64,000 nucleotides of DNA from Acetanaerobacterium elongatum (GTDB taxonomy: Bacteria > Bacillota > Clostridia > Oscillospirales > Ruminococcaceae): contig NZ_FNID01000018.1 in NCBI RefSeq assembly GCF_900103835.1, positions 1 through 64,000 of the forward strand, written 5' to 3'. The position numbers were made by a program, and so were the translations under genes. The notes beneath the pieces are model-generated. The model did not search any database, had not been told where the DNA came from, and saw nothing but the letters and a program-made list of their open reading frames with translations. This document shows positions 19,412-37,962 of the stretch, one piece after another. Position 1 is the stretch's first letter, and each line of letters begins with the position of its first letter.

Positions 19412-19429
19412 TTGGAGAAGTATTAGGAA

Positions 19430-20941: not shown

Positions 20942-20943
20942 AA

Positions 20944-21966: not shown

Positions 21967-22058
21967 TCCCAAACGAGATAGGGAGGAGTTTAACCTCCTC
22001 CCCTTTTCTTGTATGGCAAACTGCATAAATCACTACTATGAGAAAGGATTGACTGTTT

Positions 22059-23282: not shown

Positions 23283-23335
23283 TAACGGCAATAGAGATTA
23301 AACCTAGCATGTATCTTTAGGAAAGGATCATTACA

Positions 23336-24430
23336 ATGAGTGAAAAAAAATCAATCCTGGATTACGAAACAGTTGCCTTGGATGATGCAAAGAGTGCACT
23401 GGTTATCATTGACCAGACACAGCTGCCGTACAAGACCGAGATACTGTCCCTCACCACCCAGAAGGAGATCTGGACAGCTATCTATCTGCTGCAGGTGAGA
23501 GGCGCACCCGCCATCGGCGTTGCGGCAGCAATTGGTATCTACCTTGCGGCGAAGGAAATCAAGGCGGATACCTACGAGGATTTCTATGCCCAGTTTAAAA
23601 AGGCGAAGGAGTATCTCGCATCCGCCCGTCCCACTGCGGTAAACCTTTTCTGGGCACTCAACCGCATGGATGATGTGGCAAAGGCCAACTCTGATAAAAC
23701 AGTAGCGGAGGTTAAGGAGATCCTTCATAAGGAAGCCGTTGCTATTAAAGAAGAGGATATCTGGGTTTGCAAGCAGATTGGTGAATACGCCTTAACACTT
23801 GTAAAGCCCGGTGACGGCCTGCTTACCCACTGCAATGCCGGTCAGCTTGCTACCGCCAAGTATGGCACCGCTACCGCTGCAATGTACTTGGGGCAGGAGA
23901 GAGGCTATAACTTTAAGGTGTTTGCCGATGAAACAAGGCCTCTGCTTCAGGGCGCAAGACTTACCGCCTATGAGCTGCATGAGTCTGGCATTGATGTAAC
24001 GCTGATCTGTGATAATATGTCTGCCACTGTAATGAAGAACGGTTGGGTGAACGCCGTATTCGTAGGCTGCGACCGTGTTGCCGCAAACGGCGATACCGCA
24101 AACAAAATCGGCACCTCAGTGGTTGCCACAGTTGCGAAACGTTATAATGTGCCGGTATACATCTGCGCTCCTACCTCTACCATTGACCTTAACACCAAAA
24201 CCGGAGCCGATATTCATATCGAGCTGAGGCCCGCAGAAGAGGTTACTGAGATGTGGTATTCTAACCGCATGGCTCCCGCAGGCGTAAAGGTGTTTAACCC
24301 GTGCTTTGATGTAACGGATAACGACCTTATCGCCGGCATTATTACCGAGTATGGTATTGCAAGAGCACCTTATTCTGAATCGCTGAAAGAAATCTTCGCA
24401 AAAAAAGAGGCTGCAAAGGCAGCCAGATAA
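23336..24430 (+). CDS. mtnA: 5-methylthioribose-1-phosphate isomerase
   Basis: The 364-residue protein has the MtnA/eIF2B-like fold: LQVRGAPAIGVAAAIG for phosphate binding, the active-site Cys in LLTHCNAGQLA near residue 164, the active-site Asp in VGCDRVAANGDTANKIGT near residue 245, and TSTIDLNTKTGADIHIE. It converts methylthioribose-1-phosphate (or 5-deoxyribose-1-phosphate) to the ribulose-1-phosphate, the substrate form for a class II aldolase. That aldolase opens the neighbouring BMC operon at 25664. No encapsulation peptide is visible, so it probably acts outside the shell. Confidence 0.93.
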   Translation: MSEKKSILDYETVALDDAKSALVIIDQTQLPYKTEILSLTTQKEIWTAIYLLQVRGAPAIGVAAAIGIYLAAKEIKADTYEDFYAQFKKAKEYLASARPTAVNLFWALNRMDDVAKANSDKTVAEVKEILHKEAVAIKEEDIWVCKQIGEYALTLVKPGDGLLTHCNAGQLATAKYGTATAAMYLGQERGYNFKVFADETRPLLQGARLTAYELHESGIDVTLICDNMSATVMKNGWVNAVFVGCDRVAANGDTANKIGTSVVATVAKRYNVPVYICAPTSTIDLNTKTGADIHIELRPAEEVTEMWYSNRMAPAGVKVFNPCFDVTDNDLIAGIITEYGIARAPYSESLKEIFAKKEAAKAAR

Positions 24431-24432
24431 TA

Positions 24433-24570
24433 CCAATCACTCACTAAAGCCTTACTAAATAATTCTCGTAAAAAGCCGTCAATCGAAGCTTCCTGCTTGA
24501 TTATTCAATACGAAATATATATTTCGTATGGCTTTTTATAATTGTGATAAGTATCAGGAGATTACATAAG
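24433..24570 (+). repeat. Dispersed repeat, copy A (related to the obgE leader)
   Basis: This stretch aligns along its length with 61133-61246: shared blocks include TCACTAAAGCCTT/TCATTAAAGCCTT, GAAGCTTCC/CAAGCTTTT, TTTTATAATTGTGATAAGTA and AGGAGATTACATAA. Copy A carries an extra hairpin (ATACGAAATA with TATTTCGTAT). In copy B the final AGGAG is the ribosome binding site of obgE; here no start codon follows. Confidence 0.7.
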
Positions 24571-24609
24571 GCGAAGAAGTTTTACAATTCAATAACCTCT
24601 TCGCCTTAT
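24566..24609. terminator. Bidirectional terminator between mtnA and deoR-type gene
   Basis: ATAAGGCGAAGA (24566-24577) pairs perfectly with TCTTCGCCTTAT (24598-24609), with T/A-rich flanks. It separates two convergent genes. Confidence 0.75.
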
Positions 24610-24617
24610 CATTCAAT

Positions 24618-25394
24618 TTATAGCTGTGCTTTGTTGATACATTCATAATATGCAACGTTGTTCTCATTCAAAAAATCAATCCAGCTCTGCTCCAGATGCT
24701 TATCGGTGATGAGCCCGTCAATATCAGAGAAGTTACATATGTTCAAGAATGAGGTTTTATCAAACTTAGAATAGTCAGCCACTACATAAACCTTGTTGCT
24801 GCGAACCAGCAGCTTCCGCCTGATTTCAGACATTGATTCGTTGGAATCGGTGATACCGTATTCTTTTGAAAGTGAACGGCAGGACATAAAGGTTTTATCA
24901 ACGAAGTAGTTATCCAGCGACTGAAGCGCGCCGCGCCCGATAAATGACATGTTGTTTGGGGCAAAGAGGCCGCCGATTGTAATCAGGTGTATGTTCTGAA
25001 AATCAGCCAGAAAGTTTACCACCTTCAGCGAATTGGTAAGTACGGTAATGCGCATCTCGCAAACGGCCTTCGCAATAAACATTGCGGTGGTTGAGGCATC
25101 CAGAAAGATCGAATCACCGTTGTGAACAATCTCTGCACACTTTCGGCCAATCAGCTGTTTACTTTCGGTATAAGCCGCTTCACGAACAGAAAGGTCAACC
25201 TCGTTCTGAACACCGTCCTGAATAAAAGCACCTCCGTAGGTACGGGTTAGGAAGCCTTCATCTTCAAACGCTTTCAAGTCTCTTCTGATGGTTTCTTCGG
25301 TAACGGAAAACATCTCCGCAAGCTCCGAAACGATAACGCTTTTTTTCTCCAGAATAATTTCCTTGATTTTTGCTTTTCTTGTTATTGCCAGCAT
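24618..25394 (-). CDS. DeoR/GlpR-family transcriptional regulator
   Basis: The 258-residue protein has the DeoR layout. The N-terminal helix-turn-helix carries IILEKKSVIVSELAEMFSV and EETIRRDLKAFEDEGFLTRTYGGA. The C-terminal sugar-phosphate sensor domain is of the isomerase-like DeoRC type, with DSIFLDASTTAMFIAKAV and ITVLTNSLKVVNFLA. Such regulators respond to phosphorylated sugars. It is convergent with mtnA and divergent from the BMC operon. A perfect palindrome lies 40 bases in front of its start. I infer that it represses the BMC operon and itself, and is released by methylthioribose- or deoxyribose-phosphate. Whether it also controls the importer is not evident. Confidence 0.9.
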   Translation of the reverse strand: MLAITRKAKIKEIILEKKSVIVSELAEMFSVTEETIRRDLKAFEDEGFLTRTYGGAFIQDGVQNEVDLSVREAAYTESKQLIGRKCAEIVHNGDSIFLDASTTAMFIAKAVCEMRITVLTNSLKVVNFLADFQNIHLITIGGLFAPNNMSFIGRGALQSLDNYFVDKTFMSCRSLSKEYGITDSNESMSEIRRKLLVRSNKVYVVADYSKFDKTSFLNICNFSDIDGLITDKHLEQSWIDFLNENNVAYYECINKAQL

Positions 25395-25433
25395 AATGAA
25401 CCCCCGATTTAATAAAGTATGTTGCTGTTAGTT

Positions 25434-25449
25434 TGTGTTTGCAAACACA
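25434..25449. promoter_or_regulatory. 16-bp perfect palindrome, candidate operator of the DeoR-type regulator
   Basis: TGTGTTTGCAAACACA is its own reverse complement. It lies between the divergent regulator and BMC operon, 40 bases before the regulator start and about 215 before the aldolase start. TTGCAA inside it could act as a -35 element in either direction, each with a weak -10 match. I see no further strong promoter in 25450-25663. Confidence 0.6.
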
Positions 25450-25663
25450 GAAAATCGCACTTTTTATTTATTATTACATGTTTTTAACGGGAAGTAAATA
25501 ATCAGTGCAGATTTTTTTGAGCAAAAATCACATAAAAACTACAAAACACAATAAAAGCAGAAAAAAGCACACCAAAGTATAGGCTAAATTCACAAAAATA
25601 CGGCCATCAAAATCAAACACCAATCACAAATTTCAGAGAAAGTGAGGAGAGGAAGATTTCGAT

Positions 25664-26608
25664 ATGATTACTATTCAAAACGTAAAATATATGTCGGACT
25701 TCGAAGCAAAAAAAGCCATCATCGATATAGGCAAGCGAATGTACATAAAGGGCTTTGTAGCAGCGAATGATGGAAACATCAGCTGCAAGGTAGGGCCAAA
25801 CACCATCTGGGCCACCCCCACCGGTGTATCCAAAGGCTTTATGACCCCCGATATGCTTGTAAAGATTGATTTGACAAATGGTAAGGTTATTATGGGCAAC
25901 CGCAAGCCGTCCTCGGAACTGAAGATGCACCTGCGGGTGTATGAAGAGAACCCTGAGGTGATGGCGGTAACACATGCGCACCCCATGGTGGCCACTTCAT
26001 TTGCGATAGCCGGTATCAGCCTTGACAGGGCGGTTTTGCCCGAGGCGGTTGTTCAGCTTGGTTCGGTGCCCATCGCACATTATGCCACCCCCGGCACACA
26101 GGAGGTACCCGATTCCATTGCTCCCTACTGTAAAACACACAATGGCGTGCTGCTTGCCAACCATGGCGCATTAAGCTGGGGCAAGGATGTTTTTGAGGCG
26201 TTTTACCGTCTGGAGTCCATCGAGTATTATGCAACCATCTTAATGTATATCGGAAGAATCATCGGCCAGGCCAACGAGCTTTCCTGCAATCAGGTTGATG
26301 ATCTCATCAATATTCGTCAGAAGCTCGGCATCTCCAGCGGCGGCATTCCTCCGTGCACCTTAAATGCCACCAACACGCAAGACGTGGTTTCCTCCGTGCC
26401 AAGCCCCAAACCCGAGGTTCAGCTGGCGGGGGTAACGCCGCTGGTTCGTCCCGGCAAGGCATCAGAAGGCCAGGATATTGGCTGCGGATGTACGGGCAGG
26501 GTTATTCAACCCCCCACTGCGGCAGCGGATACGGGCAAAACCAAAGAGGAGATTATCTGCGAGGTAGTTAAAAGGGTAACCGAGCAGATTTCCTCGGGTA
26601 ACAAATAA
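25664..26608 (+). CDS. Class II aldolase/adducin-fold sugar-phosphate aldolase with C-terminal encapsulation peptide
   Basis: The 314-residue protein contains an L-fuculose-phosphate-aldolase-type domain (residues about 8-215). NDGNISCK forms the phosphate loop, the metal site is in AVTHAHPMVAT near residue 104, and a further His is in LLANHGALSWG near 165. A Pro/Gly-rich linker follows. The last 20 residues (KEEIICEVVKRVTEQISSG) form an amphipathic helix, the usual form of a BMC-targeting peptide. It should split a 5-substituted ribulose-1-phosphate into dihydroxyacetone phosphate and an aldehyde. Family members are known to act on fuculose-, rhamnulose- and, in the DHAP shunt, methylthioribulose- and deoxyribulose-1-phosphates. 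It is the first gene of the BMC operon. Confidence 0.88.
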   Translation: MITIQNVKYMSDFEAKKAIIDIGKRMYIKGFVAANDGNISCKVGPNTIWATPTGVSKGFMTPDMLVKIDLTNGKVIMGNRKPSSELKMHLRVYEENPEVMAVTHAHPMVATSFAIAGISLDRAVLPEAVVQLGSVPIAHYATPGTQEVPDSIAPYCKTHNGVLLANHGALSWGKDVFEAFYRLESIEYYATILMYIGRIIGQANELSCNQVDDLINIRQKLGISSGGIPPCTLNATNTQDVVSSVPSPKPEVQLAGVTPLVRPGKASEGQDIGCGCTGRVIQPPTAAADTGKTKEEIICEVVKRVTEQISSGNK

Positions 26609-26618
26609 GAAAGATTGT

Positions 26619-26690
26619 TCCTGCGGCATAGCCGCATCGCAATTTTCCATGGTGTATGTGCCTTTCCGGCGCGTACGCCGGAAAGGAATG
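26619..26690 (+). repeat. Palindromic leader repeat, with ribosome binding site in a hairpin
   Basis: A TGCGGC-ATA-GCCGCA stem-loop is followed by TCGCAATTTTCCATGGTGTA and then a perfect 11-bp hairpin (26661-26671 with 26676-26686, loop CGTA). The 3' arm of that hairpin contains the GGAAAGG ribosome binding site of the aldehyde dehydrogenase gene. Related sequence occurs at 29761-29823 and 56364-56396. Confidence 0.7.
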
Positions 26691-26695
26691 ATTAA

Positions 26696-28120
26696 ATGGA
26701 ATTTGCAGTAAATGAAATAAGCATGATTGTCGAGCAGGTTCTCAAGAATCTTGATCTCAGCAAGGTTTCTGCAGGGAATGCACCCGCTTCCCCAAAAGGA
26801 GATTACGGTGTTTTTGAGAATGTAGAGGACGCTATCGAAGCTGCTTATCAGGCTCAGAAGATCTATCTTGACAAATTTCAGGTGAAGGACAGACAAAGAA
26901 TCATTGCGGCAATCCGTAAGGTTTGCAGAGAGAATGCCGAAACCCTTGCCAGAATGGTTAGGGAAGAAAGCAAGATGGGCCGTTACGAGGATAAGATTCA
27001 AAAGCATCTGGCGGTTATCGATAATACCCCAGGCCCTGAATGCTTAACCACCGATGCCATTTCCGGCGACAGTGGCCTAATGCTGGAGGAATACGCTCCG
27101 TTTGGTCTTATCGGTGCAATCACTCCGGTAACAAACCCCACCGAAACCATTATTAACAACACCATTAGTATGATTTCGGGAGGCAACTCGGTCGTATTCA
27201 ATGTACACCCCAGCGCAAAGAATGTCTGCGCTTACTGTTTAAGGCTTATCAACAAAACCATTATCGATAACGGGGGGCCCGCAAACCTGATTACAATGGC
27301 CAAGGAGCCCACCATGGATACGGTAAAGGCAATTTCCTCCAGCCCCAAGGTAAGGCTGATGGTGGGTACGGGCGGTATGCCGATGGTAAACGCACTGCTT
27401 CGTTCCGGTAAAAAGGTAATCGGTGCTGGTGCTGGTAATCCTCCGGTTATCGTAGATAATACCGCAGATATTAAAAAGGCTGCAAAGGATATCTACTATG
27501 GTGCCTCCTTTGATAACAACCTCCTCTGCCTAGCGGAAAAGGAAGTATTCGTTCTGGATGAGGTGGCAAACCAGTTCATCTACAACATGGTGGAAGAGGG
27601 CGCCTACCTGCTAAACGGCGTACAGCTTGAGAAGATTTTAAACCTTGTTTTTAAATTCGACGGTAAGTACGACGTAAATAAGAAGTGGGTAGGGCAGGAT
27701 GCCGGAAAGATGCTTGATGCAATCGGTGTGGAGGGTAAATCTGATACCCGGCTGCTTATCTGCGAGGTTCCCCACGACCACCCGTTTGTAATGGTGGAAC
27801 AGCTGATGCCGGTACTTCCTATCGTACGCTGCAGAAACCTTGACGAGGCCATTGAGTATGCGTACATTGCCGAGTCTGGCAATCGCCACACCGCGTCAAT
27901 GTTCTCAAAGAATGTTGACAACATGACACGCTTTGCAAGAAAGATTGAGACCACCATCTTTGTAAAGAACGGGCCTACACTCAACGGTGTAGGAATCGGC
28001 GGCGAGGGCTATGCAACCATGACCATTGCAGGGCCTACCGGCGAGGGCCTTACCTGTGCAAAGAGCTTTACACGGCGCAGAAGGTGCATGCTATCCGACG
28101 GCGGCCTGCGCGTTATCTAA
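26696..28120 (+). CDS. CoA-acylating aldehyde dehydrogenase, BMC type (PduP/EutE-like)
   Basis: The 474-residue protein begins with an amphipathic helix (NEISMIVEQVLKNL, residues 6-19) typical of an encapsulation peptide. The aldehyde dehydrogenase core follows, with GLIGAITPVTNPTET, the NAD region GTGGMPMVNALLRSGKKVIG and the catalytic Cys in SFDNNLLCLAEKEVF near residue 277. It converts the aldehyde released by the aldolase into acyl-CoA, reducing NAD+. With acetaldehyde the product is acetyl-CoA; with 2-methylthioacetaldehyde it would be methylthioacetyl-CoA. PduL downstream passes the acyl group to phosphate. The ribosome binding site lies within a strong hairpin. Confidence 0.92.
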   Translation: MEFAVNEISMIVEQVLKNLDLSKVSAGNAPASPKGDYGVFENVEDAIEAAYQAQKIYLDKFQVKDRQRIIAAIRKVCRENAETLARMVREESKMGRYEDKIQKHLAVIDNTPGPECLTTDAISGDSGLMLEEYAPFGLIGAITPVTNPTETIINNTISMISGGNSVVFNVHPSAKNVCAYCLRLINKTIIDNGGPANLITMAKEPTMDTVKAISSSPKVRLMVGTGGMPMVNALLRSGKKVIGAGAGNPPVIVDNTADIKKAAKDIYYGASFDNNLLCLAEKEVFVLDEVANQFIYNMVEEGAYLLNGVQLEKILNLVFKFDGKYDVNKKWVGQDAGKMLDAIGVEGKSDTRLLICEVPHDHPFVMVEQLMPVLPIVRCRNLDEAIEYAYIAESGNRHTASMFSKNVDNMTRFARKIETTIFVKNGPTLNGVGIGGEGYATMTIAGPTGEGLTCAKSFTRRRRCMLSDGGLRVI

Positions 28121-28174
28121 TCCCTTTAAGTCGAACCCGCACAAACCCTCGGCTTAGGAAGAAAGGTTATTGTT

Positions 28175-28495
28175 ATGGCGATTGGATTTTTAGAATGTGC
28201 CGGATACGGAGCTATTCTGTATGCCATGGATAAAGCGTGCAAAACAGCAGATATCAGGATTTTGGGTATTGATACCATCAACCCAAAGGATACCAGCGCG
28301 TTCATACCGCTAACAACACAGGTGAAGTTCGAGGGGACGGTTTCCGACGTTAAGGCGGCTTTGGATGCAGCAAAGCAAGCAGCGCTCCGCTTCAACGATG
28401 AAAGTGAGATTATTACCGCAATCATCGAAAACCCATACAACGGGGTAGAGAAGCTTTCAGAAATATCAAAAATTAAATTTAATAATAAAAATTAA
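28175..28495 (+). CDS. BMC-H shell protein (divergent)
   Basis: The 106-residue protein has one BMC domain: MAIGFLECAGYGAILYAMDKACKTADIRILGID, then VKFEGTVSDVKAALDAAKQAALR. The usual short loop after the second strand is replaced by a longer INPKDTSAFIPLTTQ segment, and the C-terminus ends in a Lys/Asn-rich tail (ISKIKFNNKN). It should form a hexameric tile with a pore unlike the canonical ones, perhaps at interfaces or in a minor role. It is the first of four consecutive BMC-H genes. Confidence 0.85.
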   Translation: MAIGFLECAGYGAILYAMDKACKTADIRILGIDTINPKDTSAFIPLTTQVKFEGTVSDVKAALDAAKQAALRFNDESEIITAIIENPYNGVEKLSEISKIKFNNKN

Positions 28496-28515
28496 TAATT
28501 TGGAGGTAAATACAA

Positions 28516-28788
28516 ATGTCAGCTATCGGAATGATTGAAACCAGAGGATTAACAGCAGCTATTGAGGCCGCGGATGCTATGCTGAAGGCCGCAGACGTAG
28601 AGCTCGTAGGCACCGAGAAGATCGGTTCAGGCCTTGTAACGGTTATCGTTAAGGGTGAGGTTGGCGCAGTAAAGGCAGCTACAGAGTCCGGGCAGGAGGC
28701 AGCTTCAAGGCTTGGCGAGCTCGTAGCAGTTCACGTAATCCCCAGACCCCACACCGACGTTGCCAAGATTCTTCCCGCTATTAAGTAA
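28516..28788 (+). CDS. BMC-H shell protein, canonical (PduA/EutM-like), copy 1
   Basis: The 90-residue protein is a canonical BMC hexamer subunit: [20 protein letters not shown], then [18 protein letters not shown] with the GSG pore loop, [19 protein letters not shown], and [10 protein letters not shown] at the end. It likely makes the main facets of the shell and passes small polar metabolites. A close paralogue lies at 29379-29708, differing at about a dozen positions over the shared domain. The ribosome binding site (GGAGG) is strong, in keeping with a major structural protein. Confidence 0.95.
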
Positions 28789-28816
28789 TTCAACAGAGAA
28801 ATTTGTGTAAGAGGTC

Positions 28817-29122
28817 GTGAAAAACTTGAAACAGAACGCAATCGGAGTTGTTGAGGTTAATTATTACACAAATTCCGTTGTTGTACTGGATGAAATGCTG
28901 AAGGCCTCTGATGTGGCGCTTGTCAGCTTCCACACAAAGCTCGGCGGAAGAATGGTACACAGCATTGTAGCAGGCGAAACCTCTGCCGTTAACGCGGCAA
29001 TAGAGGCCGCCAACAAGGCAAGAAGCATCGTGGGTGAAAAGAATGTGAAGGTTGCCGTAACCATCAGCAACCCGCATCCCGAAGTACTGAAGCTGTTGAA
29101 TTTAATTAAGCAGGGGGCATAG
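28817..29122 (+). CDS. BMC-H shell protein, variant pore
   Basis: The 101-residue protein has a single BMC domain, with AIGVVEVNYYTNSVVVLDEM, then VALVSFHTKLGGRMVHSIVAGETSAVNAAIEAA and VTISNPHPEVLKLL. The pore segment is TKLGGRM in place of EKIGSGL, so a Gly-Gly-Arg loop would line the pore and change its charge. The first start is GTG at 28817, very close to AAGAGG; a TTG at 28826 is an alternative that would shorten the N-terminus by three residues. Confidence 0.9.
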   Translation: MKNLKQNAIGVVEVNYYTNSVVVLDEMLKASDVALVSFHTKLGGRMVHSIVAGETSAVNAAIEAANKARSIVGEKNVKVAVTISNPHPEVLKLLNLIKQGA

Positions 29123-29270
29123 GCGCCATACGATGCGGTAAGCTAATAATACTTATTCAGTAATAAGTACTAAAGGAGCTCCAATGAAAAGCTGGGGTTC
29201 ACAGATGTCGAATAGGCTTAAAAGACTTTGGAATTTAATTCGTAACAAGTCTGTCTGTGAGAATGAAAAG

Positions 29271-29378
29271 AGTTTGAAAGATAAATCTTTCAAACTAGGG
29301 TTTTGTGCTTTTCGGTCAATGACCGAAATTTCGGCTGAAGCCGAAACCACACAATCCCCGGAAAGGAATGGTGTAATT
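29271..29378 (+). repeat. Dispersed palindromic leader repeat, copy 1
   Basis: Three stem-loops follow each other: AGTTTGAAAG/CTTTCAAACT (29271-29296), TTTCGGTCA/TGACCGAAA, and TTTCGGCT/AGCCGAAA (29329-29346). The element ends in CCCCGGAAAGGAATGGTG, which supplies the ribosome binding site of the next gene. The same order of elements recurs at 62532-62670 before the Mini-RNase III gene. The open frame starting at 29184 that runs through it is not coding. Confidence 0.8.
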
Positions 29379-29708
29379 ATGGCAGCAGTTAATAACGAAG
29401 CTAAAGAGGCAGAGAGCAAGGCCGTTAAAACCGGAATGCAGGCACTCGGCATGATCGAAACCAGAGGCTTAACCGCTTCTATCGAAGCAGCGGATGCTAT
29501 GCTCAAGGCCGCAAACGTAGAGCTTGTAGGTACCGAAAAGATCGGTTCAGGCCTCGTAACCGTAATGGTTCAGGGCGACGTAGGCGCTGTAAAGGCAGCT
29601 ACCGAGGCTGGCCAGGAGGCCGCGTCCAGGCTGGGTGAGCTTGTTGCGGTTCATGTAATTCCCAGACCGCACGCAAGCATTGCAGCGATTCTTCCTTTTA
29701 TAAAGTAA
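29379..29708 (+). CDS. BMC-H shell protein, canonical, copy 2 with N-terminal extension
   Basis: This 109-residue protein is nearly identical over the BMC domain to the product of 28516-28788 ([42 protein letters not shown]). It has about 20 extra N-terminal residues ([20 protein letters not shown]), charged and probably flexible. The start at 29379 is set by GAAAGGA at 29361-29367. The extension could face one side of the shell or help mixed-hexamer assembly. The pair looks like a recent duplication within the operon. Confidence 0.93.
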
Positions 29709-29760
29709 TTCTTTTGAGGTAACGGCGTTAAAATTGCCGCCGGAGTTCACTGCTCCCGTG

Positions 29761-29831
29761 GCAATGCCGTATCACAATTCTCATGGCGTTTAAACCTTCG
29801 GTTGTGGCGCCGGAAAGGCATGGTCATACGT
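29761..29831 (+). repeat. Palindromic leader repeat before pduL
   Basis: GCCGTATCACAATTCTCATGG and GCGCCGGAAAGGCATG align with GCCGCATCGCAATTTTCCATGG and CGCCGGAAAGGAATG at 26619-26690. The element ends at the pduL ribosome binding site. Confidence 0.6.
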
Positions 29832-30476
29832 ATGAACTGTGATAAGGCAACGGTGGAACAGGTTACGAAGCTGGTACTGGAAAGCCTGCAACAGTATAGT
29901 TCCATTAAAACAGAGGTGCCTGTCGGGGTTTCTGCACGACATATTCATCTTAATAAGAATGATTTGGTGCGCCTGTTTGGCGAGGGGTATGTGCTGCATC
30001 AGCTTAAGCCCCTCAGCCAGCCCGGGCAGTATGCCGCCGAAGAGACCGTTGATATTACAGGCCCGAAGGGGAAGATTCCCAAGGTGAGAATCCTGGGGCC
30101 GGAGCGCAGTGCCACACAGGTGGAGATTACAGCCACCGATATGCGAAAGCTTGGCATTAACGCTCCGGTCAGAACCTCAGGCGACCTGAAGGGTACTCCC
30201 GGTATCACCATTACCGGTCCCAAAGGTGAAATCACCATAGACGAGGGTGTAATCATCTCCGACCGGCATATACACATGACACCCGCTGATGCGGTGGCTT
30301 ATGGGGTTGCGGATGGTCAAAAGGTGAAGCTTTTGGCAGAGGGAGAGAAGGGCGGAATACTGCACAATGTAATCATTCGTGTTAGCGACAAATACGCGCT
30401 CGACTGCCATATCGACACCGACGATGCCAGCGCCTTCTTGATTCGTCAGGGGCAGGTCCTGCATATTATTAAATAA
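29832..30476 (+). CDS. pduL: Phosphate propanoyltransferase PduL (BMC phosphotransacylase)
   Basis: The roughly 214-residue protein has two PduL beta-barrel repeats. The zinc-binding motifs are VSARHIHLNKNDL near residue 36 and SDRHIHMTPADA near residue 145. PGQYAAEETVDITGPKG and ITGPKGEITI are also typical. An amphipathic N-terminal helix (VEQVTKLVLESLQQYSS) is a likely encapsulation peptide. It converts acyl-CoA and phosphate to acyl-phosphate, freeing CoA inside the shell; a kinase would then yield ATP. I place the start at 29832 by analogy with the other repeat-led genes; the frame also has ATGs at 29820 and, as GTG, further upstream. Confidence 0.93.
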   Translation: MNCDKATVEQVTKLVLESLQQYSSIKTEVPVGVSARHIHLNKNDLVRLFGEGYVLHQLKPLSQPGQYAAEETVDITGPKGKIPKVRILGPERSATQVEITATDMRKLGINAPVRTSGDLKGTPGITITGPKGEITIDEGVIISDRHIHMTPADAVAYGVADGQKVKLLAEGEKGGILHNVIIRVSDKYALDCHIDTDDASAFLIRQGQVLHIIK

Positions 30477-30501
30477 CATTGAAGCTGAAAGGGTATTCGG
30501 T

Positions 30502-30762
30502 ATGATTCTAGGAACAGTTAAGGGCACGATTGTATCAACAAGAAAGTGCAGCAACCTTGTGGGCTTTAAGCTGCTGCTGATTGCACCTTATTATGGGGAT
30601 AAATCGAATATATTTGTGGCGGCGGATACCATTGGCGCAGGGATTGGCGAGCTGGTGCTGATTACTACCGATAATACCACACAGTATGCACTTGACAAAT
30701 CAGCTCCGATTGATGCTTTTGTGGTGGGTATTGTAGACGCACCTCCTCAGGAAATAAAGTAA
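30502..30762 (+). CDS. eutN: BMC-P vertex protein (EutN/CcmL family)
   Basis: The 86-residue protein has the pentamer fold: MILGTVKGTIVSTRKCSNLVG at the start, the FVAADTIGAGIGELVLITT core and the APIDAFVVGIVD end. Pentamers cap the vertices of the icosahedral shell. It is the only BMC-P gene in the locus and closes the first part of the operon. No trimeric BMC-T gene is present in the window. Confidence 0.93.
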   Translation: MILGTVKGTIVSTRKCSNLVGFKLLLIAPYYGDKSNIFVAADTIGAGIGELVLITTDNTTQYALDKSAPIDAFVVGIVDAPPQEIK

Positions 30763-30790
30763 TATTTGTTCTATTGTTTCAACTCAAAAT

Positions 30791-30844
30791 GGGGACTGAC
30801 ATTTATAGGGTGAAGCATACCCATTAAGTAGTACAGTCCCTTTT
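30791..30844 (+). terminator. Internal terminator or attenuator within the BMC operon
   Basis: GGGACTG (30792-30798) pairs with CAGTCCC (30834-30840), with a nested GGGT/ACCC stem and a TTTT end. A further 8-bp pairing joins 30851-30858 with 30919-30926, near the next gene's start. The 165-base gap is by far the largest in the operon and may reduce expression of the downstream genes relative to the shell genes. Confidence 0.5.
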
Positions 30845-30927
30845 ATAAGCAAAGGTACTTATTATTCAGATTGTCAGATTTAAGATCATCTTTCAAGGCT
30901 GGTTAAAGAAAGGGCAAGGTACCTTTT

Positions 30928-32037
30928 ATGAAAGATAAGGCACTAAAAGTTTTGGCAGTGGCTGATCCTGCTGTTTTGGTTTATATCGATGATAAACTAG
31001 GGGTTATGCGCAATTTTGGGCGCAGGGTAGAGTTTGATGTGTTCCCATGGGAACAGTACTATACCACGATGATGGAAGTTTTTAAGGGAAAGGCCTATTA
31101 TGACGCAGTAATGGTTGCCGGCCACCTATGGAAGCGTGATTTTGTTGATAAGGGTTATCTGGCCCCCATTGAATTTGAAGATGAAGATATTTTGCCTGCT
31201 ATTGCGCAGGAAATGAAATATAACGGCAAAGCCTATCTCTCACCGTCGTTCTGTGACGGTCACATGATTGTTTACCGTAAGGACATGACCGATAAACGCT
31301 TCGGCGATATCATTACTCCACAGGAATATGCGGTATTCTGCACGTCCTTCGAGGTTCCCTCCATTGCCATGAAGGCACATCCGTCGGAGATATTTACCGA
31401 TGCCCTGCCCTTCTTGCGCATGAATGGGCAGGATGTATATGATAGAGCAACCCACAAGGCTGTATGCGATTGCGAGCAGGTGATTAGAGGGCTCGAGGTT
31501 TATTGCAGCCTGAAGAAGTATGCGCTTGAAGGCACCGAAAGTTTTGGAAACGAGCAGATTGCTCAGGTGCTCAGAAATAGAAGGGCAGCCGCCGCGGTAA
31601 CGTGGAGCGGCCAACTTGGCACTCTGCTGAATAAGGATTGTATAAAGCCCGAGAACCTCGGCTTTGCAACCTTCAGCACTGCCTGGAATGTAACATGGTC
31701 CTTTGCCATCAACGCTCACTGTGAAAACATGCAAGAGGCTAATGAGCTTCTGCGCTACCTCCGTTCGCCGGAGGTTGACGCGGTAGCCGGTGCTTACAGC
31801 GGCGCGCCGGTGCGCGAGCGCAGCTACCTTACGGGTAAGGATAAGTACCCGTGGTATTCCTGCCAGCTGAATATGATCAAGAATTCCAAGCCACTGCCGG
31901 ATCAGCAGGGAGCAGGCGATAAAAACGCGGTATTCTATGAAGAGATTGCCGCTGCGTTTTCGGGTAAAAAAACGCCCAAAGTGGCGATGAGTGATGCGCA
32001 GAAAAGAATCAACGAGCAAGGAGGGTTTACGGCGTGA
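30928..32037 (+). CDS. Solute-binding-fold protein without signal peptide, in BMC operon
   Basis: The 369-residue protein resembles family 1 extracellular solute-binding proteins (maltose-binding fold): FDVFPWEQYYTTMMEVFKG, YDAVMVAGHLWKRDFVDKGYL, YLSPSFCDGHMIVYRKDM, and a C-terminal half with AAAVTWSGQLG and ANELLRYLRSPE. It starts MKDKALKVLAVADPA with no signal peptide or lipobox, so it should stay in the cytoplasm or the compartment lumen. Its stop overlaps the GTG of the next gene by four bases, which couples their translation. A role in sensing or carrying the sugar (or a sugar phosphate), or in a two-component regulatory complex, is possible; the actual function is unknown. Confidence 0.8.
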   Translation: MKDKALKVLAVADPAVLVYIDDKLGVMRNFGRRVEFDVFPWEQYYTTMMEVFKGKAYYDAVMVAGHLWKRDFVDKGYLAPIEFEDEDILPAIAQEMKYNGKAYLSPSFCDGHMIVYRKDMTDKRFGDIITPQEYAVFCTSFEVPSIAMKAHPSEIFTDALPFLRMNGQDVYDRATHKAVCDCEQVIRGLEVYCSLKKYALEGTESFGNEQIAQVLRNRRAAAAVTWSGQLGTLLNKDCIKPENLGFATFSTAWNVTWSFAINAHCENMQEANELLRYLRSPEVDAVAGAYSGAPVRERSYLTGKDKYPWYSCQLNMIKNSKPLPDQQGAGDKNAVFYEEIAAAFSGKKTPKVAMSDAQKRINEQGGFTA

Positions 32038-33365
32038 AAGTAGTTGTTATCGGCGGTGTTGCCGCGGGTATGTCGGCAGCCTCTAAGATTGCAAGAACCG
32101 ATAAATCCGCCGAGGTTGTTGTGTACGAGAAGGGCGGCTTTCTCTCCTACGGAGCTTGCGGGCTTCCCTATTATGTGGGTAATTTTAACGATGATTACAG
32201 AAGAATGATTGCCCGCACGCAGGAACAGTTTACCAAGGCCGGTATCAAAACACACCTGCACCATGAGGTTGTTAAGGTTGACACCGAAAAAAAACAGATA
32301 CTTGTTAAGGATATTAAGAATGGCAGCTTTTTTACCGAAAGCTATGATAAGCTCATGATCTCCACCGGTGCTTCATCGATAGTACCGCCTTTTCCGGGCG
32401 CGGAACTTATGGGAGTACATGTACTTAAAACACTGGAAGACGGTATCTTTTTAAAGGAATTTGCTGCAATGCCGGAGGTTAACAATGTTACCATCGTAGG
32501 CGGCGGATATATCGGCGTTGAATGCGCAGAGGCCTTTTTAAATATCGGTAAGCATGTACGTATGATAGAGGCAGCAAGCCGGATACTTACACCCTTTGAT
32601 ACTGAGTTTTCTGATATCGCGGCGAAAGAACTTGAAAACCATGGGGTAAAGCTGCATATCGGTGAAAAAGTAAAAGGCTTTAAAGGCTCCGGCAAGGTAA
32701 GTCAGGTTGAAACCGATAAAGGAACCTATGATACCGATCTTGTTATTATCGCAGTGGGCGTACGCCCCAACACCGCATTTTTAAAGGATACCGGAATCAG
32801 AACCGCGAAAAACGGCGCAATAATCGTCGATCGAGAGATGAAAACCTCGGTGGAGGATATCTACGCTGCCGGTGACTGCGCATTGGTTTACAACAGGGTG
32901 ATGGAGGAGGATTCCTTCTTGGCACTTGGAACGGTAGCTAACAAGTGCGGCAGAATCGCGGGCGGCAATATCGCGGGCGGGCACCAGAAGTTTGTGGGCG
33001 CCCTTGGCTCTGCTGCCATCAAGGTATGTGATATCGAGATGGGGCGCACGGGCATGGGCGAAGCAGATGCCAAGCGTCTTGGTGTAAAATACAAAACCGT
33101 AATAGCCCAGGCGAATGATCATCCGGCCTATTACCCCAATCCCACGCCGGTTACTATTAAGCTGATTTACGAAGAGGGTACCAGAAGGTTGCTGGGTGCA
33201 CAGGCTTGCGGCAAAAAAGGTGCAGTCATGCGTATAGATGTTTTCGCCGTAGCCATTCATGCCGGAATGTCAACCGACGAACTGGGCATGGTAGACCTAG
33301 TTTACGCCCCGCCTTTCGCAGGGGTATGGGACGCGGTTCACATTGCCTCAAACCTCGCGAAATAA
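32034..33365 (+). CDS. CoA-disulfide reductase/NADH oxidase-like flavoprotein
   Basis: The 443-residue protein belongs to the single-cysteine pyridine-nucleotide-disulfide reductases. The FAD site is MKVVVIGGVAAGMSAASKIA, the redox Cys is in SYGACGLPYYVG near residue 42, the NAD(P)H site is NVTIVGGGYIGVECAEAF, and the second FAD motif is EDIYAAGDCALV. Relatives reduce CoA disulfide, polysulfide or O2 with NADH. In this operon it could recycle NADH from the aldehyde dehydrogenase or keep CoA reduced near the shell; a sulfur-linked role would fit methylthioribose as substrate. It is translationally coupled to the solute-binding-fold gene. Confidence 0.88.
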   Translation: MKVVVIGGVAAGMSAASKIARTDKSAEVVVYEKGGFLSYGACGLPYYVGNFNDDYRRMIARTQEQFTKAGIKTHLHHEVVKVDTEKKQILVKDIKNGSFFTESYDKLMISTGASSIVPPFPGAELMGVHVLKTLEDGIFLKEFAAMPEVNNVTIVGGGYIGVECAEAFLNIGKHVRMIEAASRILTPFDTEFSDIAAKELENHGVKLHIGEKVKGFKGSGKVSQVETDKGTYDTDLVIIAVGVRPNTAFLKDTGIRTAKNGAIIVDREMKTSVEDIYAAGDCALVYNRVMEEDSFLALGTVANKCGRIAGGNIAGGHQKFVGALGSAAIKVCDIEMGRTGMGEADAKRLGVKYKTVIAQANDHPAYYPNPTPVTIKLIYEEGTRRLLGAQACGKKGAVMRIDVFAVAIHAGMSTDELGMVDLVYAPPFAGVWDAVHIASNLAK

Positions 33366-33432
33366 TGCCTATATTTACAGATATCAATATAAAATACCAT
33401 CATAAAATCTGTAAGAAAGGAATACCAAATAG

Positions 33433-34245
33433 ATGAATAAGCTTATGTCCCTCACACAGGCTGTGGAGCTGATAAAAGACGGAACAACTGTCGGGATAGG
33501 CGGCAATGTGCTGCATCGAGCGCCTATGGCTATCATCCGTGAAATGGCGCGTCAGGGCAAAAAGAATCTGCGTATTGTAAAAACCGCGGGTGCGATGGAT
33601 GTTGACCTCTTATGCCTGGCAGAATGCGCCTACAGCGTGGATGCCGGTTTTATCAGCTATGAAACGGAATATTCCCTTGCCGGGCACTACCGCAAGGCTG
33701 TTCAAAGCGGAACGGTAAAGGGAAATGAACATGCCTGTTATACCGTAATATCTGCGCTGCGCGCTGCTTCCGCGGGTATCCCGTTTATGCCGGTAAAAGG
33801 GCTGCAGGTAAGCGACCTTATTGCCGTGAACGATTATTTTACCAGAATACGCGATCCCTTTTCGGGTGAAGAGGTAACTGTAGTTAAGGCCATCCGCCCC
33901 GATATTGCAATTATCCATGTGCAGGAGGCCGATACAAACGGCAACGCAAGAATCACGGGGCCAAAGTATGATGACATCCTGCTTTCCCGTGCGGCAGATA
34001 AGGTAATCATTTCAGCCGAAACCATCGTACCGGTAACCAAGTTCTCCTTCTCGTCCGAGAAGGCAGATATCCCTCATTTCATGACGGCAGCCGTTGTGCT
34101 TGCCCCTAAGGGTGCGGCTCCTTGTTCCTGTACCGGAAGGTATGATATTGACCGCAGCGGCCTTGATACATTTAAGGCAATCAAGGATAAGGGCGGACTT
34201 GAAGCCTATCTTGAGCAGTACAAGCTTGCCGACAGGGGAAGATAA
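33433..34245 (+). CDS. CoA-transferase family I, alpha-type subunit (GctA/IpdA-like)
   Basis: The 270-residue protein shows the family I alpha fold: VELIKDGTTVGIGGNVLHRAPMA, the GFISYETEYSLAGHYRKAVQSG helix region, and ACYTVISALRAASAGIPFMP. It pairs with the next gene, 12 bases away. Classical members move CoA between carboxylates; relatives with the same fold (IpdAB) are hydrolases. A Glu in SYETEYSL could be important if the pair is of the latter sort. In this context it may act on the acyl-CoA made by the aldehyde dehydrogenase. The substrate is unknown. Confidence 0.85.
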   Translation: MNKLMSLTQAVELIKDGTTVGIGGNVLHRAPMAIIREMARQGKKNLRIVKTAGAMDVDLLCLAECAYSVDAGFISYETEYSLAGHYRKAVQSGTVKGNEHACYTVISALRAASAGIPFMPVKGLQVSDLIAVNDYFTRIRDPFSGEEVTVVKAIRPDIAIIHVQEADTNGNARITGPKYDDILLSRAADKVIISAETIVPVTKFSFSSEKADIPHFMTAAVVLAPKGAAPCSCTGRYDIDRSGLDTFKAIKDKGGLEAYLEQYKLADRGR

Positions 34246-34257
34246 GGAGGGGCGAAT

Positions 34258-35007
34258 ATGGCATACATAAATAACACCAATCTTTCAAATCAGAATTATC
34301 GTGCCTCTGATATCTTGGTTTGTGCAATGGCAAGGCTAATAAATAACGAGGAAACGGTATTCCATGGGGTATCCTCCCATATGCCCATGCTGGCGGTAAT
34401 GCTTGCAAAAGCGCTCCATGCACCGGATGCCGTACATCTGAATATCCCCGGAGGCGTTAACCCTAAGCCGGCCGCACTTCAGAAGTATACAAGTGCAGGA
34501 TCAGAGCTTTTGGATCATGCTTCAGCATACTTTCCGCTTGCGGAGGTGTTTGACCTTTCCATGCGTGGAAAGCTGGATGTGGCGTTTTTAAGCGGCATAC
34601 AGTTTGATGTAAACGGCAATGTCAACGCCTCGGTTATCGGCGACTATCACAGGCCGAAGGTACGTATGCCAGGCGGTGCCGGAAGTGCCGTATTAATACC
34701 CACCGCAAAACGTGCCATCATTTGGCGCACCAAGCACGACAAGAGAACGTTTGTGGATAAGGTGGACTTTGTTACAACCAGGGGCAATATCGACCGGATT
34801 ATCACCCCACTGTGCATCTTTAAATTTGAGAACGGTAAACTGGTTTTGGATACCATCCATCCGATGTCGAGCCTCGAAGAGGTAATAGAGAACACCTCTT
34901 TTAAGGTGGAGTACAGCAAGGTTGAATATACCGCTCCTCCAACCCAGCAGGAGCTTACATTGTTAAGAAGATTAGATCCGAAGGATTACAGAAACATAGA
35001 GTTCTAA
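34258..35007 (+). CDS. CoA-transferase family I, beta-type subunit, catalytic Glu apparently absent
   Basis: The 249-residue protein aligns with glutaconate CoA-transferase subunit B: GKLDVAFLSGIQFDVNGNVNASVIGDYHRPK and PGGAGSAVLIPTAKR are characteristic. In family I enzymes the nucleophilic Glu lies in an ESG-type motif after the conserved APD. Here that stretch reads APDAVHLNIPGGVNPKP, placing Ile at the Glu position. The pair is therefore unlikely to be an ordinary CoA-transferase and may be a hydrolase or lyase of the IpdAB type, or have lost activity. The gene follows subunit A with a clear AAGGAGG site. Confidence 0.82.
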   Translation: MAYINNTNLSNQNYRASDILVCAMARLINNEETVFHGVSSHMPMLAVMLAKALHAPDAVHLNIPGGVNPKPAALQKYTSAGSELLDHASAYFPLAEVFDLSMRGKLDVAFLSGIQFDVNGNVNASVIGDYHRPKVRMPGGAGSAVLIPTAKRAIIWRTKHDKRTFVDKVDFVTTRGNIDRIITPLCIFKFENGKLVLDTIHPMSSLEEVIENTSFKVEYSKVEYTAPPTQQELTLLRRLDPKDYRNIEF

Positions 35008-35079
35008 GGCTCATGCGATAAACTTGGGGCTGCTTGTTTAATCCCCAATTTCGCAGCCTGTAGAGAGGAAAAACAGCAT

Positions 35080-36252
35080 ATGGGCATTCATAGGGTCAAC
35101 TCGGTTGCGGTTAGCTTTTTCGGAAAAGGCTCAATCAGCTTGTTACCGGAGGAACTGAAAAAGCGCAGCCTTAAAAGAGCACTGATTATTACAGACAATT
35201 TCTTGTATGAATCCGGCACTGCCGCGCGTGTGGGCGACGAACTGCTGAAGGCCGGGATTGAATACGCCATCTATTATAGGGTACAGCCCAACCCAACGGT
35301 GGATATCATCAATGAATGTATCTACGCCGCAAGTGAGCTTAAGGTGGATGTTTTGGTTGCGGTTGGCGGCGGTTCGGCAATTGATACAGCCAAGGCGGTA
35401 GGTATTGTATTAACAAACGGTGGTCAGGTGGAGCAGTACGAAGGGCTTAACAAATCGAAAAATCCTGCACTTCCGATTGTCGCTGTCAATACTACAGCCG
35501 GCACGGGCTCTGAGGTAACCTCGTTCTATGTGGTTACCAACCCTAAAATCCATTCCAAGATGGTAATGGTAGACCCGAACTGTATGGTGAGCATTGCCAT
35601 CAACGATTCCGATTTTATGCTCTCGATGCCAAAAGGCCTTACTGCGGCTACCGGTATGGATGCGATGACACACGCTATTGAGGCAGTACTCTGCCGCCAG
35701 TCTACACCGCTTACCGATAAGGATGCTTTGTGGTGTATTAAGACGATTAAGGATTATCTCCCCACAGCGGTTGCAAACGGCAGCGATGTAAAGGCACGCG
35801 ATATGATGGCCTATGCCGAATATACCGCAGGTATGGCATTCTCCAACGGCGGCCTCGGCATGGTTCATGCAATGGCTCACTCGCTGGGTGGGTTTTATAA
35901 CCTTCCGCACGGAATCTGCAACTCAATACTGTTGCCCTTTGTAATGGAATATAACGGCCAATCGGCTGAGGTTCAGCAGAAGTTTATTTCCATAGCACTT
36001 GCTTTGGAGATTGACGGAGCTAAAAGCATGTCTGCCGCTGAGGCGATGAGAGCATGTGTTATGTATATTCGTAATCTATGCAAACAGGTGGGTATTCCAA
36101 GCGGATTTGCACAATATAAAGTAAAGAAAGAGGATTTTTCTGCCCTTGCAAAGCTGGCGTTAGCCGATACCTGTATGCCGGCAAACCCCATTCAACCCAC
36201 GGCTGAGGATATTATTGCCGTTTACGAAAAAGCATACAACGGTATAGCGTAA
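35080..36252 (+). CDS. Iron-containing alcohol dehydrogenase
   Basis: The 390-residue group III alcohol dehydrogenase has the NAD-binding VAVGGGSAIDTAKAVG near residue 95 and NTTAGTGSEVTSF. Its metal ligands are in GMDAMTHAIEAV near 195 and in VHAMAHSLGGFYNLPHGICN near 262-280. It should reduce the aldehyde produced by the aldolase to the alcohol and regenerate NAD+ for the aldehyde dehydrogenase: ethanol if the sugar is 5-deoxyribose, 2-methylthioethanol if it is methylthioribose. No encapsulation peptide is obvious at the N-terminus. It is preceded by a 72-base gap with inverted repeats. Confidence 0.92.
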   Translation: MGIHRVNSVAVSFFGKGSISLLPEELKKRSLKRALIITDNFLYESGTAARVGDELLKAGIEYAIYYRVQPNPTVDIINECIYAASELKVDVLVAVGGGSAIDTAKAVGIVLTNGGQVEQYEGLNKSKNPALPIVAVNTTAGTGSEVTSFYVVTNPKIHSKMVMVDPNCMVSIAINDSDFMLSMPKGLTAATGMDAMTHAIEAVLCRQSTPLTDKDALWCIKTIKDYLPTAVANGSDVKARDMMAYAEYTAGMAFSNGGLGMVHAMAHSLGGFYNLPHGICNSILLPFVMEYNGQSAEVQQKFISIALALEIDGAKSMSAAEAMRACVMYIRNLCKQVGIPSGFAQYKVKKEDFSALAKLALADTCMPANPIQPTAEDIIAVYEKAYNGIA

Positions 36253-36291
36253 AACTACTTATAGAATTACAGAATAAGGAGGATAACAATC

Positions 36292-37299
36292 ATGAAAAAA
36301 ATCATCAACAAGCCTGAAAACTACGTAAAAGAGATGCTCGAAGGTCTTTACATTGCCCACCCCGACTTGATAACCTATACCGCGGATGATCTGCATTGCC
36401 TTGTGACTGCTAACAAAAGAGAGGGCAAGGTGGGGTTGGCCACAGGCGGCGGTTCCGGTCATCTTCCGTTATTCCTCGGCTATGTGGGCAAGGGCATGCT
36501 GGATGGCTGCTCGGTTGGCGATGTTTTTCAGTCTCCTTCTGCGGAACAGATGCTTGCGGTAACCAAGGCAATCGATTCCGGTGCAGGTGTACTTTATATC
36601 TACGGAAACTATAACGGCGATATATTTAATTTCGATATGGCTGCCGAAATGGCCGATTTTGAAGAGAACATTCAAGTACTGAGTGTGGTAGCGGGCGATG
36701 ATGTTGCTTCTGCGGGGCCTTCCGCTCCCGGCGAAAAGAGTACCCGTCGCGGTGTTGCGGGCATCTTTTTCGTGTTCAAATGCGCTGGTGCAGCTGCCGA
36801 TAAGATGCTGCCCCTTGAAGAGGTAAAACGTATAGCCGAAAAAGCGGCAGCAAATGTTAGAACGATGGGCGTAGCACTTACCCCATGCACCGTTCCCCGC
36901 GTTGGCAAACCGGGCTTCAGCATCGGCGAGGATGAGATGGAGATAGGCATGGGCATACACGGTGAAGCCGGCATCCGGCATGGTAAGATTGAACCTGCCG
37001 ACCAGATTACCGATGAAATGCTGGATAAGATTATTACCGACCTTCCGTATACCGCGGGCAACGAGGTGGATGTACTGGTTAATGGCCTCGGTGCAACCCC
37101 GCTTGACGAGCAGTATATCGTCACAAGGCGTATCAGTATGTATCTTGCTGAGAAAAACATCAAGGTTCACCGCTTCTATGTAGGCGAATATGCTACAGCG
37201 ATTGAAATGGCCGGTATCTCCATATCGGTTTTAAAGCTGGATGCTGAACTGAAAGCGCTGATGGAAGCTCCTGCCTGCACACCGTTCTTCAGGCAGTAA
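36292..37299 (+). CDS. dhaK: Dihydroxyacetone kinase subunit DhaK
   Basis: The 335-residue protein has the DhaK fold: the VGLATGGGSGHLPLFLGYVG binding loop near residue 50, GNYNGDIFNFDMAAEMAD, and the substrate-binding His in GMGIHGEAGIRHGKI near residue 222, which forms the hemiaminal with a ketose. It binds dihydroxyacetone or a related short ketose. The gene lies 40 bases after the alcohol dehydrogenase with an AAGGAGGATAAC site, and DhaL follows. Why a pathway that should already release DHAP needs a dihydroxyacetone kinase is an open question; related paralogues act on erythrulose and similar sugars. Confidence 0.92.
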   Translation: MKKIINKPENYVKEMLEGLYIAHPDLITYTADDLHCLVTANKREGKVGLATGGGSGHLPLFLGYVGKGMLDGCSVGDVFQSPSAEQMLAVTKAIDSGAGVLYIYGNYNGDIFNFDMAAEMADFEENIQVLSVVAGDDVASAGPSAPGEKSTRRGVAGIFFVFKCAGAAADKMLPLEEVKRIAEKAAANVRTMGVALTPCTVPRVGKPGFSIGEDEMEIGMGIHGEAGIRHGKIEPADQITDEMLDKIITDLPYTAGNEVDVLVNGLGATPLDEQYIVTRRISMYLAEKNIKVHRFYVGEYATAIEMAGISISVLKLDAELKALMEAPACTPFFRQ

Positions 37300-37338
37300 T
37301 ACTGTCTCTCAATTAAACCTTTAGTGAGGATGAATTTG

Positions 37339-37962
37339 ATGGATAAGGGTTATATCATAAAGTTGCTGGAAAATCTCAAAGATATAATGATGACTAATAA
37401 GGATTATCTCATACAGTTAGATAGTGTTGTTGGCGACGGCGACCTAGGGTTAACCATGAGCGATGGTTTTCTTGCAGCCTACAATGCCGTAAAGGATACG
37501 GATGATAACGATATCGGTAAGATTCTTTATGCCGCAGGTAAGGCGATGTCTACTGCCGTTCCTTCTACCATGGGCACATTGATGGCATCTGGATTTATGA
37601 ACGCGGGAAAGGTTTTAAAGGGAACAACTGAGGTTACACTGACAGACATCGCCAATCTATTTGATGCCTACCTTGAAGGTGTTGCTGCAAGAGGAAAGGC
37701 CAAGCTGGGCGATAAAACCTTCTTAGACGGCCTTGCGCCCGCCGTAGCTTCCCTAAAGGCGTCGGCGAAGAATCAAGACACACTTGAACATGCGGCGTCG
37801 GATGCAGCATACGCCGCCGAAGAGGGCTTCATGCATACCAATCAGCTTCTTGCCGTGCATGGCAGGGCCGCCACAAGGGGAGAAGAGTCCAGAAAACTGC
37901 TGGATCCCGGCGCTGCAGTAGCAATGCTGATGATGAAGGCCTTTCATAAGAGCGTTCGCTAA
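37339..37962 (+). CDS. dhaL: Dihydroxyacetone kinase subunit DhaL
   Basis: The roughly 207-residue all-helical protein has the magnesium-nucleotide motif DSVVGDGDLGLTMSDGF near residue 30 and TMGTLMASGFMNAGK, plus the terminal HGRAATRGEESRKLLDPGAA. It holds ADP or ATP and phosphorylates the ketose bound by DhaK. No DhaM (the PTS donor) is in the window, so either ATP is used directly or DhaM is encoded elsewhere. I place the start at the ATG at 37339, eight bases after GAGGA; the frame opens at a GTG at 37324. It is the last gene of the BMC operon. Confidence 0.9.
   Translation: MDKGYIIKLLENLKDIMMTNKDYLIQLDSVVGDGDLGLTMSDGFLAAYNAVKDTDDNDIGKILYAAGKAMSTAVPSTMGTLMASGFMNAGKVLKGTTEVTLTDIANLFDAYLEGVAARGKAKLGDKTFLDGLAPAVASLKASAKNQDTLEHAASDAAYAAEEGFMHTNQLLAVHGRAATRGEESRKLLDPGAAVAMLMMKAFHKSVR

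Follow-up and report, generated by a model that had tools for sequence, protein, structure and literature searches.

The open reading frame at 30928-32037 (+ strand) of the window, i.e. of the whole 64,000-nucleotide stretch of Acetanaerobacterium elongatum DNA analysed here (contig NZ_FNID01000018.1, positions 1 to 64,000), predicts a protein with the fold of an extracellular solute-binding protein (SBP) within an operon for a bacterial microcompartment (BMC). This raises the question of whether the protein is exported and, if it is not, what it does inside the cell. The frame is intact and complete and corresponds to 369 amino acids; the protein is hereafter called cSBP.

Sequence of cSBP and absence of an export signal

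The cSBP protein matches Pfam family SBP_bac_1 (PF01547) over residues 33-283 with an E value of 2.3e-10 and 41.4 bits, above the curated cut-off of 26, and NCBIfam holds no model for it. It also matches solved sugar-binding proteins at low identity, the nearest being 5ci5, 6dtq (MalE3), 5ysb, 7nbz (SmoF) and 4rya. The likeness to the family-1 extracellular SBPs of PF01547 runs along nearly the full length of the fold and includes the scaffold residues D59, W68, P106, Y116-R117, W257 and G292-P294, but cSBP differs from them in having neither signal peptide nor lipobox, nor a neighbouring permease of the UgpA/E or MalF/G type. The stop-to-stop frame is 376 amino acids, and just seven codons (RKGKVPF) separate the upstream in-frame stop from the ATG, so that no signal peptide is possible there and a hidden upstream start was rejected. 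The N-terminus enters strand 1 of the fold at once (KVLAVADPAV), and the most hydrophobic 15-residue stretch near it is this strand, LKVLAVADPAVLVYI, with a KD value of 1.85, compared with 2.5-2.7 for the equivalent region of four exported relatives.

The TGA of cSBP (32035-32037) overlaps the GTG of the next gene, encoding a flavoprotein, by four bases (GTGA, 32034-32037). A sequence-only reading had described a solute-binding fold with no signal peptide or lipobox and with this same overlap, all of which agrees with the present results, and it had named an upstream start with a signal peptide as the finding that would overturn it; none was present. Its further statement that no matching ABC subunits lie next to the gene held for permeases of the MalF/UgpA type, none of which adjoins cSBP. 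It needs qualification for importers as such, because 9-13 kb upstream, within this gene neighbourhood, there is a complete importer of the ribose type together with a binding protein of its own.

The operon surrounding cSBP

The operon extends from 18221 to 37962, with all genes on the + strand except the regulator. The importer (18221-21966), consisting of the binding protein (18221) and RbsA-like (19430) and RbsC-like (20944) subunits, was identified with profiles and through homologues which adjoin mtnK and mtnA in Klebsiella, Priestia and Sinorhizobium. It is followed by an mtnK-type kinase (22059-23282, TIGR01767) and an mtnA-type isomerase (23336-24430, TIGR00512), both over the cut-off of their models, and by a divergent DeoR-family regulator (24618-25394, - strand; profile). 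A class II aldolase (25664-26608; PF00596), which belongs to the drdA clade in a phylogenetic tree (see below), has a C-terminal encapsulation-peptide-like tail, and the CoA-acylating aldehyde dehydrogenase (AldDH, 26696-28120, NF011927 over cut-off) has an encapsulation-peptide-like helix at its N-terminus. Four BMC-H shell genes (PF00936) occupy 28175-29708, beginning at 28175, 28516 and 28817, with the fourth present as a 90-amino-acid domain at about 29436-29708. The ORF of 174 amino acids at 29184-29708 is probably too long as predicted; its last 90 amino acids (from about 29436) form the conserved BMC-H domain, as in Acetoanaerobium noterae. Next are a PduL-type phosphotransacylase (29802-30476; PF06130, with an N-terminal encapsulation-peptide-like extension recognized from its termini) and the EutN/CcmL vertex shell protein (BMC-P, 30502-30762, PF03319). 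Downstream of cSBP, which was assigned from its ORF, PF01547, termini and hydropathy, are the flavoprotein of the CoA-disulfide-reductase/NADH-oxidase family (32034-33365, NCBIfam NF007123 over cut-off), the alpha and beta subunits of a CoA-transferase (33433-34245 and 34258-35007, together 33433-35007; PF01144), an iron-type alcohol dehydrogenase resembling lactaldehyde reductase (35080-36252; TIGR02638, below cut-off) and the DhaK and DhaL subunits of dihydroxyacetone kinase (36292-37962; profiles). Outside the operon, 47445-54845 encodes a protein of 2466 amino acids with glycoamylase-like and GH94 domains, of the cyclic beta-glucan synthase/phosphorylase type.

The spacing between eutN and cSBP is 165 bp (30763-30927) and contains a hairpin followed by UUUU, resembling a terminator or attenuator (30791-30841, + strand). 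Its folding energy is -23.2 kcal/mol (z -4.55), and none of 200 shuffled sequences was equally stable; it has no match in Rfam and no further copy elsewhere in the genome. Read-through into cSBP may therefore be attenuated. A second pairing within the gap would cover the start region of cSBP. The A. noterae locus has no comparable gap before cSBP.

Orthologues of cSBP and what their loci share

Four orthologues with 37-42 % identity to the window protein were found, and identity across the five lineages is 37-65 %. The A. noterae orthologue (41 % identity, E 3e-92) was obtained with tblastn, that of genome G1210 (E 1.9e-116) with a profile search of 398 genomes of the phylum, and those of G1334 and G1341 by searches around G1210. 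At 1e-15 or better, the own genome was the sole match among 295 genomes of the order and 391 of the class, and among 298 genomes of the family at 1e-10 there was only one additional match, an exported relative. Scans of genome contigs with the window protein and with a two-row alignment gave no cSBP match, nor did viral contigs.

Two of the five cSBPs, those of the window and A. noterae, are in microcompartment operons of matching order. In A. noterae (locus L005) the order is aldolase, AldDH, four BMC genes, PduL, EutN, cSBP, CoA-disulfide-reductase-family flavoprotein and CoA-transferase, followed by importer, mtnK and mtnA, and the four-base overlap with the flavoprotein gene is identical. 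The genes in G1210, G1334 and G1341 sit among importer, mtnA, mtnK and aldolase genes, and their surroundings contain neither BMC nor flavoprotein genes. In G1210, a gene resembling aldehyde ferredoxin oxidoreductase, as judged by its N-terminus only, is found between mtnK and the aldolase gene (L012:17031-18821) and is a possible alternative route for handling the aldehyde. Common to all five loci are the ribose-type ABC importer, MtnA, MtnK, the class II aldolase and the DeoR regulator, and nothing else, although these five members are few and were found via cSBP itself, the shared context being noted afterwards, which introduces ascertainment bias. The recurrence of this set assigns cSBP to sugar salvage rather than to the shell or flavoprotein. 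It is an accessory to the pathway, since it was absent from most drd (5-deoxyribose) clusters (none of the eight examined has it) and from the Klebsiella, Priestia and Sinorhizobium loci in which an importer occurs with mtnK.

That cSBP might be a microcompartment factor specific to the shell or the flavoprotein, either delivering substrate to the shell or acting as partner of the CoA-disulfide-reductase-like protein, is suggested by its position between eutN and the flavoprotein gene in both BMC loci, with the overlap to the latter. We regard this as improbable, given that three of the five orthologues have neither kind of gene nearby and that no encapsulation-peptide-like tail was seen by eye on cSBP, in contrast to the aldolase, AldDH and PduL; it also carries no extra tail relative to the BMC-free orthologues, although it might conceivably be encapsulated by means other than a peptide. 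A flavoprotein 45 % identical to that of the window is furthermore encoded beside an importer on a plasmid of Priestia, in a locus for methionine salvage (L085:15104-16444) where BMC genes and cSBP are both absent. The window flavoprotein may therefore serve sulfur-sugar salvage rather than the shell, and a sulfur-redox link that does not depend on microcompartments is suggested. As a general role for cSBP, partnership with the flavoprotein was rejected on account of the orthologues free of BMC and flavoprotein genes.

Separation from exported relatives and clade-specific residues

No signal peptide was found in any of the five cSBPs, four of which have at most eight codons of open frame upstream of the start. 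The five form one clade with 100/100 support, apart from the seven exported relatives sampled (G1019, G609, G1048, G1236, G275, Paracoccus and Burkholderia), with which they share 19-25 % identity where measured. The exported relatives adjoin permease genes in the loci read; four of them were tested by hydropathy, and each has an N-terminus resembling a signal peptide. Carbohydrate permeases of the UgpA/E type, such as the exported relatives have, are absent from the cSBP loci, where only the ribose-type importer is present. A location of cSBP in the cytosol is thus supported by the predicted proteins.

Export of cSBP by a non-classical route as binding protein of the adjacent importer, or its being a recently truncated and decaying gene, would be consistent with the complete fold and with an importer nearby in all five loci. 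Either is very improbable: at each locus that importer comes with its own binding protein, the protein is of mature length with strand 1 intact and is conserved in five lineages, and it is the relatives with permeases that carry signal-peptide-like N-termini.

The sequence-only reading had proposed a cytosolic location and a link to sugars or sugar phosphates, and both were supported, the first by the orthologues, which are not always exported as it had allowed they might be, and the second by the genes common to the five loci. Its suggestions of a role tied to the shell and of specific coupling to the flavoprotein were not supported by the comparison with the three operons that have no BMC or flavoprotein genes.

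Among the residues invariant in cSBP, 44 recur in one or more of five exported relatives and are mostly scaffold, whereas 37, including D13, D110, G111, H112, K149, E154, N208, Q229 and W253, are absent from all five and set cSBP apart from other PF01547 proteins. Many of these are charged or polar, which favours the view that cSBP evolved into a pathway enzyme, e.g. a mutarotase-like (anomer-interconverting) or nucleoside-cleaving enzyme acting on an imported 5-substituted ribose compound, with H66, D110, H112, D13 and E154 as acid/base residues in the cleft. Their placement in the cleft comes from alignment, the single-sequence AlphaFold model having a pLDDT of 42. Also in favour are the minimal operons, in which every gene but cSBP has an assigned step, the absence of the MTA nucleosidase TIGR01704 from the three BMC-free genomes (G1210, G1334 and G1341), and, from the literature, a fucose-mutarotase homologue in the drd cluster of Denitrovibrio (PMC6079011) and the evolution of enzymes from binding proteins (PMC7683729). 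An MTA/SAH nucleosidase (MtnN) is present, however, in the genomes of the window organism and A. noterae, which weakens the case for nucleoside cleavage. The case for a mutarotase is weakened by general chemistry, as 5-substituted riboses exist only as furanoses and can anomerise unaided. Thiaminase-type chemistry was rejected: the weak local similarity to Thiaminase I is confined to about residues 60-120, the cSBP orthologues reach 19 of the 175 bits of TIGR04541, far below the curated cut-off, the catalytic Cys aligns with an Asp (D110), the neighbouring C109 is Ser in G1334, and cSBP has no signal peptide. An enzymatic role of this kind is considered tentatively and is rather unlikely.

Substrate of the pathway and type of microcompartment

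Biochemical work has established the drdK/I/A pathway for 5-deoxyribose, and DrdK also takes 5-methylthioribose (PMC6079011). The kinase, isomerase and class II aldolase clustered in the window are the trio of this drd or DHAP shunt, and the predicted function of the trio is conversion of 5-deoxyribose or methylthioribose to DHAP and an aldehyde. Like the drd clusters described there, the window has the three genes in one locus and an aldolase of the drd clade; it differs in the addition of the importer and cSBP and, in two genomes, of a complete microcompartment. Some drd clusters have sugar transporters, and the passages covered (PMC6079011) mention neither cSBP nor a microcompartment.

The binding protein of the window importer is about 40 % identical to those of Klebsiella and Enterobacter. 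In Klebsiella aerogenes, rbsA, rbsC, mtnK and mtnA share a locus with genes of methionine salvage; in Priestia and Sinorhizobium, mtnK and mtnA accompany a related importer. Because its binding protein resembles those beside rbsA, rbsC, mtnK and mtnA in the Klebsiella loci, sugars of the methylthioribose type are the most likely substrates of the importer.

In a tree of 25 aldolases, those of the window and A. noterae group with drd aldolases linked to mtnA and mtnK (92/99), whereas four aldolases of PVM-like or GRM5-kind BMC loci form a separate group (100/99); the G1210 and G1334 aldolases have very long branches and their placement is unreliable. The genes which define PVM-like loci (PMC4207490) are all found in the window, namely class II aldolase, AldDH, PduL, more BMC-H than BMC-P genes and DeoR, but its aldolase groups with those of drd clusters and is not of the fucose/rhamnose type. 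PVM-like loci are held to act on fucose- or rhamnose-like substrates (PMC8156839, PMC8217296). The window differs from the PVM-like and GRM5 microcompartments (PMC4207490, PMC8217296, PMC8156839) in its mtnK, mtnA and drd-clade aldolase, which point to 5-substituted pentoses rather than fucose or rhamnose, and in the addition of cSBP, the flavoprotein and the CoA-transferase. No glycyl radical enzyme was found in the locus. The operon looks like a microcompartment for the DHAP shunt (5-deoxyribose or methylthioribose), the core order of which recurs in A. noterae, and no description of such a microcompartment was found in the literature searched.

Encapsulation-peptide-like C-terminal tails, e.g. 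DEFLIRDIVEQVTSTVLKKYK, were also observed on drd-clade aldolases without adjacent shell genes (L059-L062, L064 and L065; G804, G703, G765, G921, G641 and G714), hinting that these aldolases are microcompartment cargo with the shell encoded elsewhere.

Proposed role of cSBP

The best explanation, in which we place moderate confidence, is that cSBP is a cytosolic member of the family-1 SBP fold which takes part in import and catabolism of 5-substituted ribose via the DHAP shunt, binding the pentose once it has been imported, or else its 1-phosphate, and regulating or assisting the importer/kinase step or possibly acting as a derived enzyme. The importer would bring in 5-methylthioribose and/or 5-deoxyribose, MtnK would convert it to the 1-phosphate, MtnA would isomerize this to the ketose 1-phosphate, and the class II aldolase would release DHAP and the aldehyde. 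In the window the aldehyde would be handled by the microcompartment; in other genomes cSBP would work without one. The two-lobed cleft of cSBP would close on the pentose or its 1-phosphate, and the ligand-bound protein may then act on the importer or kinase.

Cytosolic regulatory binding-protein domains are known from the C-termini of NrtC and CmpC. Like these, cSBP has the fold of a binding protein, stays inside the cell and has an importer close by, but it is free-standing, with no fusion to an ATPase.

It seems unlikely, if conceivable, that an SBP moved into the cytosol to become a new enzyme of 5-deoxypentose or methylthioribose salvage, in an operon packaging the DHAP shunt into a microcompartment. 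By definition, binding proteins work outside the membrane, and the cSBP clade gave up export and kept to one catabolic pathway, making it a clean case in which the change of a binding protein into an intracellular regulator or enzyme can be tested. The operon also suggests 5-deoxyribose or methylthioribose, by-products of SAM enzymes, as the substrate of some microcompartments now assumed to act on fucose or rhamnose.
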